Assembly: GCF_004138165.1 (NCBI RefSeq)
Contig: NZ_RYFF01000026.1
Span: 1-64,000 of the forward strand
Direction: 5' to 3'
Source: Candidatus Chloroploca sp. Khr17
GTDB lineage: Bacteria; Chloroflexota; Chloroflexia; Chloroflexales; Chloroflexaceae
DNA length: 64,000 bases
The position numbers and the translations under genes were made by a program. Below the pieces are notes generated by a model, which saw only the letters and a program-made list of their open reading frames with translations, made no database searches and was not told the origin of the DNA. Shown in pieces: positions 33,593-64,000 of the stretch (within the stretch, counting starts at the first letter, position 1; the number at the start of each line of letters is the position of its first letter).

Positions 33593-35071
33593 ATGACAGA
33601 TGCAAATACGGATGCTCAGACCAGATCTTCCCTCGGGAGAACGATCCTTCGCAATACGCTCTTTGTTTCTTCGGGTGGCGGTCTGATCCGCTTATTGACG
33701 TTTGCCTACACGATCCTTTACGTACGTACCCTTGGCGAGAGTGTCTATGGACAGTATGCCACGGTGCTTGCATTTGGCGGTCTCTTTGGCATCTTTTTTG
33801 AACTTGGGATGACGCAGTATGTTGAGCGTACGCTGGCGCAGGATCGTTCGCGTCTTTCCGAGTTGCTCTGGTTGCTGATTGGCGTGCGTCTCTTGCTGGC
33901 GCTTGCGGGCATTGGATTGTTGCCCCTGCTGGCCCTTGGCCTTGGCTATGAACGCGTCATTGTTCTGAGCATCCTCGTCTTGAGCCTGACGTATGTGCTT
34001 GCTGCGGTGTTGGCCCCGTTGATGGTCATCTTTACTTCTCATGAGCGGTATGACCTTTGGACGTTGTGCCAGGTGGTTGGTCAGGTTGGCACCATTGCGA
34101 TTGGGGTACCGGTACTGCTGATGGGCGGCGGGCTCGTGGCGCTGGTGAGTGTCGGACTAGTGGTCATGCTCTTGCAGATCGTTGTTTGCCTGGGCTGCCT
34201 CAGATACATTCATCTTGATCCAGTGCATTTCAACTTTGACCGGAGAGCTGTACCGGGTTTTTTGCGTGCGAGTCTGCCGTTCGCGCTGAGTGCGCTTGCC
34301 TTGACGATCAGTTTTAACATTGATACCGTTCTATTGAGCTTGCTCCAGCCGAGCGAAGTTGTTGGGTGGTACAGTGCGGCGTATAAACTGGTACCAACGG
34401 CGATCTCGATCCTTGGAGGGTTTTTGACGGTGATTACGCCGTCGCTGGCCCGTACCTATGTGAGTGATCGTGAGACGGTGCATCATTGGACCCGGATAAG
34501 CATAAAGTGGCTCGCGCTTTTTGCGTTGCCTGTGGCGATGGGAACGTCGCTGCTTGCCCCCCAGATTATTGCGTTGCTTTATGGTCCAGCCTTTGCGCCA
34601 GCGGCGGTGGTTCTGGCGGTCATCAGTTGGGACATCCCGTTGCGGCTGTTCAATGCGTTTGCCGGCAATGTGACGGCGGCAGTGGGCCTAGAACGTGCCG
34701 CGTGGCGCACATTTATGACAGGAGCCCTGATTGGGGTTGTCTTGTACGCGCCGGCGATTATGGCGTTTGGCATGCTTGGCGCGGCAGTTGTGACGGTGCT
34801 GACTGATGGCATCAATGCGATCCTCTTTTACCGATTGATCGGCAAGCATTTGCATACGAGCGAAGTGGGGGTTACACTGCTGCTCGTATCTGCGGCAACG
34901 CTCGCGATGGGTGGTGTGGTCTGGGGTGCGGGGCAGTTTACAATTTTGCCAGTAACGGTGGCGCTTGGGATGGTGAGCTATAGCATTCTTGTTGTGATGC
35001 TGCGCCTGGTTGACCGGGCGGTTGTGGCGCAAGTGATGGCCCTGATTATGCGCAGGAGGCGTGTGATATGA
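33593..35071 (+). CDS. Oligosaccharide flippase family (Wzx-like) membrane protein
   Basis: A 492-residue protein of the MOP/polysaccharide biosynthesis exporter superfamily with about 12-14 helices. The N-terminus (RNTLFVSSGGGLIRLLTFAY, then LGESVYGQYATVLAFGGLFG) and FNIDTVLLSLLQPSEVVGWY with YSAAYKL are typical for Wzx flippases. It would move a lipid-linked product across the inner membrane. It is the first gene of the PKS operon, and its stop overlaps the next start (ATGA). It is therefore a candidate exporter for the polyketide or its conjugate; the substrate is inferred only from context. Confidence 0.85.
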   Translation: MTDANTDAQTRSSLGRTILRNTLFVSSGGGLIRLLTFAYTILYVRTLGESVYGQYATVLAFGGLFGIFFELGMTQYVERTLAQDRSRLSELLWLLIGVRLLLALAGIGLLPLLALGLGYERVIVLSILVLSLTYVLAAVLAPLMVIFTSHERYDLWTLCQVVGQVGTIAIGVPVLLMGGGLVALVSVGLVVMLLQIVVCLGCLRYIHLDPVHFNFDRRAVPGFLRASLPFALSALALTISFNIDTVLLSLLQPSEVVGWYSAAYKLVPTAISILGGFLTVITPSLARTYVSDRETVHHWTRISIKWLALFALPVAMGTSLLAPQIIALLYGPAFAPAAVVLAVISWDIPLRLFNAFAGNVTAAVGLERAAWRTFMTGALIGVVLYAPAIMAFGMLGAAVVTVLTDGINAILFYRLIGKHLHTSEVGVTLLLVSAATLAMGGVVWGAGQFTILPVTVALGMVSYSILVVMLRLVDRAVVAQVMALIMRRRRVI

Positions 35072-62316: not shown

Positions 62317-64000
62317 ATGAATGAATTTTTTGAGCGCATCAGCAAACTTTCGCCAAAGCGTCTGGCCCTGCTCGCCCTTGAGTTGCAGGGGCGGCTGGAG
62401 AGTGCCGAACGCATACGACGTGAGCCAATTGCTATCGTTGGCCTTGGTTGCCAGTTTCCTGGGGCCGATGGCCCCGAAGCTTTCTGGGCCTTGCTGCGCG
62501 ATGGGGTGGACGCCGTGAGTGAGATTCCGCCCTCGCGCTGGGATCGTGATGCGCTCTATGATCCCGATCCTGATGCACCTGGCAAGGTTGCGACCCGCTG
62601 GGGCGGCTTCATCGAGCCAATCGACAGGTTTGAACCCGAACTTTTTGGTATCTCGCCCCGTGAGGCCCAGACGATGGATCCGCAACAGCGCCTACTCTTG
62701 GAGGTCAGTTGGGAGGCTCTGGAGCGAGCGGGGTATGGATCGGCGACGCAACTGAGTGGCAGCGCAACGGGAGTTTTTGTTGGTATCTGCAATACCGACT
62801 ATAGCGTAATGCTGCTTGGTGACGACCCAGCGCAGATCGATGCGTACCTCTCGACTGGCAATGCGCACAGTGTCGCTTCAGGGCGGATCTCGTATGTGCT
62901 TGGCCTTCAGGGTCCCAGTCTCTCGATTGATACAGCCTGTTCTTCGTCGCTGGTGGCGGTGCATCTTGCCATTCAGAGCCTGCGCAATGGCGAGTGCCGG
63001 ATGGCCTTGGCGGGTGGCGTCAACGCGATCCTTGCCCCAACAACGACGGTCACGCTCTCGCGGGCCAGGATGATGGCCTCAGATGGGCGGTGCAAGGCTT
63101 TTGATGCGCGTGCCGACGGCTTTGTTCGTTCTGAGGGCTGCGGCATGGTGGTGCTCAAACGCCTGGCCGATGCCCTGACCGATGGCGATACCGTGCTTGC
63201 TGTGATCCGCGGGTCGGCGATCAATCAGGATGGGCGCAGCAACGGTCTTACGGCACCGAATGGCCCTGCGCAGGTGGCGGTGATTCGGGCCGCCCTTGAG
63301 GATGCCGCGCTGAAGCCTGCTGATGTGCATTACGTCGAGACCCACGGCACCGGGACGGCGCTTGGCGATCCGATTGAGGTGCAGGCGCTGGGGGCGGCGC
63401 TCGGCCCTGGTCGTGATGCGTCGACGCGTCTGGCGATCGGTTCGGTCAAGACCAACCTCGGCCACCTTGAATCGGCGGCCGGGGTTGCCGGTCTGATCAA
63501 GGCGGTGTTGATGTTGCAACATGGCATGATCCCGCCCCATTTGCACCTCACCGAGCTCAACCCCCATATTGCCTGGGACGAGTTGCCGATTGATGTGCCT
63601 GCAACTGGCGTGCCCTGGCCCGTTCGCCCCGGCCCGCGCATTGCTGGTGTTAGTTCGTTCGGCTTTAGCGGCACCAATGCCCATCTACTGCTCGAAGCTG
63701 CACCCGAGTCTGAGCCGACTGCGCCGAGTGGGCGCGAATTGCATCTGCTCACGCTCGCGGCTCGTAGCACGACGGCCCTGCGCAGCCTGGCGGGGCGTTT
63801 TGCTACGCATCTGGCTGCGTACCCCGAGCTTGCACCTGCCGATGTGGCCTATACCGCTAATACTGGTCGTGCGTTGCTGCCCCATCGCCTTGCGCTTGTT
63901 GGTGACAGCCTGGAGGAGTTGGGCTCGCAACTTGCTGCGCATGCTGCGGATGACGAGAGCGAGACCGTGCTTGTCGGTCGCGCCGAGGGGCCGCGTCCCC
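62317..64000 (+). CDS. Type I PKS 5, N-terminal part (KS and start of linker; runs off window)
   Basis: ATG at 62317, two bases after the PKS 4 stop. The frame is open to the window edge (561 codons). Docking helix about 1-32 (MNEFFERISKLSPKRLALLA). KS about 33-455: DTACSSS (C208), VETHGTGT, TNLGHLESAAG and [16 protein letters not shown], all catalytic residues intact. After the KS the usual KS-AT linker is seen (LHLLTLAARSTTALRSLAGR). The AT and later domains, and the chain-releasing domain of the pathway, lie outside the window. Confidence 0.92.
   Translation, partial: MNEFFERISKLSPKRLALLALELQGRLESAERIRREPIAIVGLGCQFPGADGPEAFWALLRDGVDAVSEIPPSRWDRDALYDPDPDAPGKVATRWGGFIEPIDRFEPELFGISPREAQTMDPQQRLLLEVSWEALERAGYGSATQLSGSATGVFVGICNTDYSVMLLGDDPAQIDAYLSTGNAHSVASGRISYVLGLQGPSLSIDTACSSSLVAVHLAIQSLRNGECRMALAGGVNAILAPTTTVTLSRARMMASDGRCKAFDARADGFVRSEGCGMVVLKRLADALTDGDTVLAVIRGSAINQDGRSNGLTAPNGPAQVAVIRAALEDAALKPADVHYVETHGTGTALGDPIEVQALGAALGPGRDASTRLAIGSVKTNLGHLESAAGVAGLIKAVLMLQHGMIPPHLHLTELNPHIAWDELPIDVPATGVPWPVRPGPRIAGVSSFGFSGTNAHLLLEAAPESEPTAPSGRELHLLTLAARSTTALRSLAGRFATHLAAYPELAPADVAYTANTGRALLPHRLALVGDSLEELGSQLAAHAADDESETVLVGRAEGPRP

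Follow-up and report, generated by a model that had tools for sequence, protein, structure and literature searches.

Gene content and surroundings of the locus

The DNA analysed here, referred to as the window, comprises 64,000 bp and corresponds to bases 1-64000 of contig C87 (84,297 bp) in the 6.38 Mb, 171-contig genome of a strain of Candidatus Chloroploca, a filamentous anoxygenic phototroph of the Chloroflexota (PMC6180586). A plus-strand gene run starting at position 33593, described in the original prediction, is borne out on the contig, where 15 intact plus-strand genes extend to position 83688 (~50 kb). Rightward extension, suggested earlier as a way to find a terminating thioesterase (TE) or reductase, added PKS6, an NRPS and five other genes, none of them with an integrated domain of either kind. 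Outside the window lie the terminal glycine NRPS, a hydrolase pair, an exported SGNH protein and a PPTase. The contig ends ~600 bp past the PPTase gene, so an extra gene farther right is possible. The features are listed in order, with positions beyond 64000 being those of contig C87; G216, G641 and G436 denote genomes with related clusters.

33593..35071, plus strand: Wzx/MOP-type flippase, 492 aa (PF01943, 2.4e-30)
35068..36987, plus strand: AsnB-like protein, 639 aa (PF00733, GATase_7)
37041..37823, plus strand: type II thioesterase (TEII), 260 aa (PF00975, 1.9e-42; homologs in the G216, G641 and G436 clusters)
37820..43198, plus strand: PKS1, KS-AT(VASH)-degenerate DH-KR-ACP (domains, motifs, KS clade)
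43211..49723, plus strand: PKS2, KS-AT(HAFH)-DH-ER-KR-ACP (domains, motifs, KS clade)
49724..50123, no strand: 400-nt intergenic gap between PKS2 and PKS3 with inverted repeats/hairpins
50124..54518, plus strand: PKS3, KS-AT-cMT-ACP, without reductive domain (counterparts in G216, G641 and G436 alike in length and 54-56% identical)
54515..62314, plus strand: PKS4, KS-AT(HAFH)-DH-cMT-ER-KR-ACP, KR Tyr replaced by His (domains, motifs)
62311..69150, plus strand: PKS5, KS-AT-DH-cMT-KR-ACP, crossing the window end at 64000 (KS clade)
69160-70080, plus strand: DMT-type permease (weak EamA match, below cut-off)
70077-71207, plus strand: exported SGNH/GDSL protein (apparent signal peptide, TP-rich linker)
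71238-77795, plus strand: PKS6, KS-AT-DH-ER-KR-ACP (domain profiles)
77792-81181, plus strand: NRPS, C-A-PCP (domain profiles, active-site motifs)
81178-81993, plus strand: hyd2, alpha/beta-hydrolase (TIGR03101 model)
81969-82940, plus strand: hyd1, alpha/beta-hydrolase (TIGR03100 model)
82894-83688, plus strand: PPTase (PF01648)

Overlapping stops and starts, predicted for the whole run, are found at nine of the 14 junctions (4-47 nt); four others are gaps of 9-53 nt, and one is the 400-nt gap. The latter contains inverted repeats with 30-nt arms (90%) and with 26-nt arms across the PKS2 stop codon. Given this hairpin-bearing gap, a single transcript for the cluster is not implied. A scan for promoters and terminators returned sites no more numerous than in shuffled sequence.

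To the left of the cluster, a cytochrome gene is kept in both available congeners at 88-90% DNA identity. Synteny with them stops at position ~32016, beside a dispersed repeat (32016-32138), where an insertion or a loss may have occurred. Two dispersed repeat families (~160 and ~130 bp) occupy positions 29910-30202 and have many copies across Chloroploca genomes, 75-95% identical. An Rfam CRISPR-DR28 match at 30140-30163 lies inside one of them and does not resemble a CRISPR array. Farther left, at 25740-28692, a MauG/di-haem cytochrome c peroxidase-like gene adjoins an MbnP-like gene, possibly a copper-related pair.

Polyketide synthases, NRPS and hydrolase pair

At least five modular PKS proteins had been anticipated, and the contig encodes six, each with a single module and together displaying KS, AT, DH, ER, KR, cMT and ACP domains. 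The KS active-site Cys and the ACP Ser are found in all six. The cMT count, originally given as two, is corrected to three: the domain occurs in PKS3, PKS4 and PKS5, the last beyond the window. The methylmalonyl-like AT noted before is the VASH-type AT of PKS1. Combined with the cMT domains and the ER domains of PKS2, PKS4 and PKS6, it supports the methyl-branched, partly saturated chain that had been proposed. Judged from sequence comparison, a chance origin of the domain assignments is excluded by E-values down to 1e-104 and by the recurrence of the gene set in other genomes. The KR of PKS4 carries His in place of Tyr in the window, G216 and G641; a sequencing error is ruled out by the presence of the same residue in three clusters, and the His could block the later reductive steps of PKS4. 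PKS3 shares KS, AT and cMT domains with the yersiniabactin synthetase HMWP1 (irp1; 37% identity over 86%), although the overall pathway differs from the window cluster. Its best plasmid matches are cyanobacterial PKS (40-51%). The same genome encodes a second PKS on contig C29 (L035, 11607-19334), truncated by the contig end, with two KS, at least one AT and one KR, and at most 53% identical to PKS5.

The presence of KS-AT-ACP proteins and a C-A-PCP protein at one locus qualifies the cluster as a hybrid modular type I PKS-NRPS. Adenylation-domain codes, hand-read from a motif alignment, are DILQLGMVW in the window and G216, DILQLGVIW in G436 and DLTKIGEVG in G641, the last of which we take to resemble Asn/Asp codes. 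DILQLGMIWK is a glycine code (PMC12283262); the window code, one residue off, is of glycine type. The NRPS ends after the PCP, where no TE or reductase model matched, and the cluster has no integrated domain of this kind. A C-terminal TE or reductase is usual for release in modular PKS-NRPS systems, if not universal. Where this domain is missing, the discrete TEII and the hyd2/hyd1 pair are present.

The two hydrolases differ at the nucleophile position, with Cys in hyd1 (GHC[A/S/G]G, plus a conserved DH motif) and Arg in hyd2 (GLRLG). The GHCxG and GLRLG motifs are kept in five of five clusters. Both proteins score below the curated cut-offs of their models: hyd1 reaches 85.8 against TIGR03100 (E 2.9e-24, cut-off 168.45) and hyd2 102.8 against TIGR03101 (E 2.1e-29, cut-off 202.75). 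These models describe hydrolases 1 and 2 of the exosortase A system, which likewise form an adjacent pair; unlike them, the window pair stands after an NRPS. An exopolysaccharide cluster of Burkholderia cenocepacia likewise carries a TIGR03100 annotation (PMC3584217). The PPTase scores 213.8 against the HetI model NF042922, below the curated cut-off of 370.

Homologous clusters in other Chloroflexota

The PKS cluster was not found in the congeners Ca. Chloroploca mongolica M50-1 and Ca. Chloroploca asiatica B7-9, and hyd1 is present in only one of 158 genomes of the window's class. A strain-specific cluster was nevertheless rejected, as the cluster is present in other classes. The relatives were located by a phylum-wide search with hyd1, the rare last hydrolase, which gave strong matches outside the window's class. 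The cluster is complete in G216, in the same order, and in G641, and is split over two contigs in G436; G746 retains its right-hand part at a contig end. G216 and G436 belong to other families of the phylum, outside the window's class. Identities between the relatives' proteins and those of the window are about 34-57%.

In G216 (contig C63) the order is GT4 glycosyltransferase, flippase, AsnB, PKS1-PKS5, permease, TEII (opposite strand), PKS6, NRPS, hyd2, hyd1 and SGNH. G641 (contig C150) displays flippase, AsnB (opposite strand), GT4, TEII, PPTase, seven PKS proteins—the permease placed before the last of them—NRPS, hyd2 and hyd1. One contig of G436 bears AsnB, TEII, PPTase and PKS1 with the PKS genes that follow it, and no flippase beside AsnB; the other bears PKS6, NRPS, SGNH, hyd2 and hyd1. 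The extra module of G641 and its Asn/Asp-like code indicate that products differ between members of the family.

A tree of 42 KS domains, its bootstrap not fully settled, supports orthology across the clusters for modules 1, 2, 5 and 6. PKS1 of the window, G216, G641 and G436 form one clade (100/100), PKS2 pairs with that of G216 (100/100), PKS5 groups with G216 and G641 (100/96), and PKS6 of four genomes forms a clade (98/89); the tree leaves the orthology of PKS3 and PKS4 unresolved. Conservation at the level of single modules in different classes suggests that the cluster has been kept by selection, possibly for a role in the cell envelope.

Searches against plasmids matched the cluster neither at the DNA level nor, at ≥60% identity, at the protein level. 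The cluster is undescribed in the literature found on Chloroflexi/Chloroflexota, on Chloroploca and on AsnB in PKS clusters, which gives numbers of PKS-NRPS clusters in the phylum but no descriptions. Nothing in these plasmid and literature searches speaks against the earlier remark that the cluster is not recognised as a known pathway. To our knowledge, few natural products come from phototrophic Chloroflexota. The parts of the cluster are of known kinds, while the combination and its cross-class conservation are not described in the literature found; their novelty is provisional. That the cluster and its family exist as delineated here we regard as nearly certain.

Flippase, AsnB-like protein and the candidate product

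The Wzx-like flippase and the type II thioesterase of the original prediction are both confirmed by their profile matches. Flippase homologs are found beside AsnB in G216 (44% identity), within the G641 cluster (34%) and in polysaccharide-type loci (41-49%). AsnB-like homologs occur in the PKS clusters of G216 (56%), G641 (44%) and G436 (45-46%), so that all four clusters readable at this position, including that of the window, contain the gene. In samples of 400 genomes from the phylum, close AsnB homologs (E < 1e-100) outside Chloroflexales are restricted to G216 and G436, which are also the two genomes with a strong full-length hyd1 match. These homologous clusters in other classes show, as far as gene neighbourhood can, that AsnB is part of the PKS cluster, and make the flippase very likely a member.

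The AsnB-like assignment holds at the level of family, and the protein is not a canonical amidotransferase. By sequence it belongs to the same two-domain family as the hydroxyamidotransferase 7YLZ and asparagine synthetase B (1CT9), but, unlike both, it is missing Cys2 along with other residues of the glutaminase and synthetase motifs. Cys2 is replaced by Ser, the NGE loop reads CGE, SGGLDS reads SGGLDGR and SGEGxDE reads SGWDGGT; the residues expected of a glutamine-dependent synthetase are thereby lost. All eight close homologs have MSG instead of MCG, a CGE, AGE, SGE or VGE loop instead of NGE, SGGLDGR and SGWDGGT (SGHDGGT in one), whereas seven of seven control AsnB proteins from the phylum retain MCG, NGE and the other canonical residues.

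Substitutions at Cys2, in the NGE loop and in SGEGxDE, and in most members also at the SGGLDS serine, make the activity of the protein uncertain, and it may be catalytically inactive. These changes weigh against a reading in which it amidates the released polyketide/glycine carboxylate with free ammonia or another amine, comparable to 7YLZ with its own donor, the flippase and glycosyltransferase being secondary. We consider this reading unlikely, though not strongly so: in a profile comparison with the PDB, 7YLZ ranks first (E 1.3e-30), ahead of asparagine synthetases (6e-16), CarA (1Q15), which forms an amide without using glutamine, matches as well (1.1e-5), and the gene is constant among the readable clusters. 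Related AsnB copies, however, also occur in loci without PKS.

These are polysaccharide-type loci of Chloroflexales, in which flippase, AsnB-like and GT4 genes are found together. In Ca. Chloroploca asiatica, Ca. C. mongolica and Ca. Viridilinea mediisalina the flippase shares 41-42% and the AsnB-like protein 52-55% identity with its window counterpart; the neighbours are glycosyltransferases and, at some of the loci, an acyltransferase, and no PKS or NRPS was seen there. In a Chloroflexales MAG, an OpgC/HGSNAT-like membrane acyltransferase directly adjoins a flippase-AsnB pair (L036, 4794-5960). The occurrence of the pair without PKS would fit two unrelated units standing side by side, a polysaccharide-locus remnant and a PKS-NRPS cluster. 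We hold this to be very improbable: AsnB and the flippase recur in the G216 and G641 PKS clusters and AsnB in that of G436, and the deepest branches of the AsnB tree are the PKS-linked copies from G436 and G641, which retain SGGLDSR, with the polysaccharide-linked copies nested within the PKS-linked ones. The same observations disfavour the pair as a leftover neighbour or a recruit from polysaccharide loci.

A Pfam-supported GT4 gene adjoins flippase/AsnB in the G216 and G641 clusters; its closest counterparts in the Chloroflexales polysaccharide-type loci are 48-53% (G216) and 37-41% (G641) identical. This link to glycan loci supports, without proving, a sugar-bearing or surface-bound product, and lends indirect support to the lipid-like or glycan-linked product originally proposed. 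The window cluster (33593-83688) has no glycosyltransferase gene, and the C23 locus of the same genome carries one. The absence from the cluster is compatible with an ordinary secreted, sugar-free small molecule resembling a lipopeptide, such as an antibiotic, a signal or a siderophore-like compound, the flippase being a plain MOP-superfamily exporter like MATE. The DMT permease and the flippase could both serve in export, and PKS-NRPS clusters usually yield diffusible products. Such a molecule is a serious possibility, if one we would not favour, since the flippase falls in PF01943, a polysaccharide family, its closest relatives adjoin AsnB and GT4 in polysaccharide-type loci, and GT4 is part of the G216 and G641 clusters.

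Our best reading is a surface-located (glyco)lipid of the C-methylated N-acyl-glycine type, produced by a conserved but sporadic Chloroflexota PKS-NRPS family; taken as a whole, we judge its chances of being right and wrong about equal. It is weakened by the absence of a glycosyltransferase gene from the window cluster and of a flippase beside AsnB in G436. Its parts differ in strength: the class of the chain is probable, whereas the glycan and surface part is tentative, falling somewhat short of an even chance. Gene content, domain order, cross-class conservation and the states of catalytic residues are established at the level of sequence. We infer that PKS1 to PKS6 act in gene order and would build a chain of six extensions, with a hydroxyl from PKS1, C-methyls from PKS3-5, reduced units from PKS2 and PKS6, and a keto group retained at PKS3. 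The starter unit and the AT choices are uncertain. The NRPS would join the chain to glycine, and hyd1 (Cys) and hyd2 (Arg), replacing a TE domain, would free it from the carrier protein or hand it to an acceptor. The AsnB-like protein could act as an ATP-using amide ligase without glutamine hydrolysis, or as a non-catalytic partner. A sugar would be added by GT4, in cis in two relatives and presumably in trans in the window genome; the flippase would move the lipid product outward, and acyl trimming or transfer outside the cell may fall to the exported SGNH enzyme.

A bolder version of the surface glycolipid reading is improbable at present: an undescribed class of Chloroflexota surface glycolipids whose lipid part, a glycine-capped C-methylated polyketide, would come from a phylum-specific assembly line and be transferred to a sugar or lipid acceptor by the Cys hydrolase and Arg pseudohydrolase, with a glutamine-independent AsnB-like ligase. 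The cluster makes testable the role of AsnB-like proteins without glutaminase and that of hyd1 and hyd2, annotated only as hypothetical families.

PPTase-NRPS-hydrolase cassettes are found in G543 (L100, 4792-11154) and G608 (L097 12357 to L098 2588), with no PKS genes in the stretches read around them, which suggests that hydrolases of the hyd type go with NRPS carrier proteins generally. Fused hyd2-hyd1 proteins with the same Arg/Cys pair are encoded in Cupriavidus, Mycetohabitans and Azospirillum. Two of the three (Mycetohabitans and Azospirillum) adjoin an acyl carrier protein and an 'amino acid--[acyl-carrier-protein] ligase'; the proximity of the pair to a carrier protein resembles the window, but no PKS, condensation domain or flippase is annotated nearby. 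Proteobacterial operons (L059, 5793-13791; L060, 5356-12942) combine an ACP, an acyl-CoA dehydrogenase, an amino acid:carrier protein ligase, a DUF1839 protein and a GH2 protein with the fused hyd2-hyd1.
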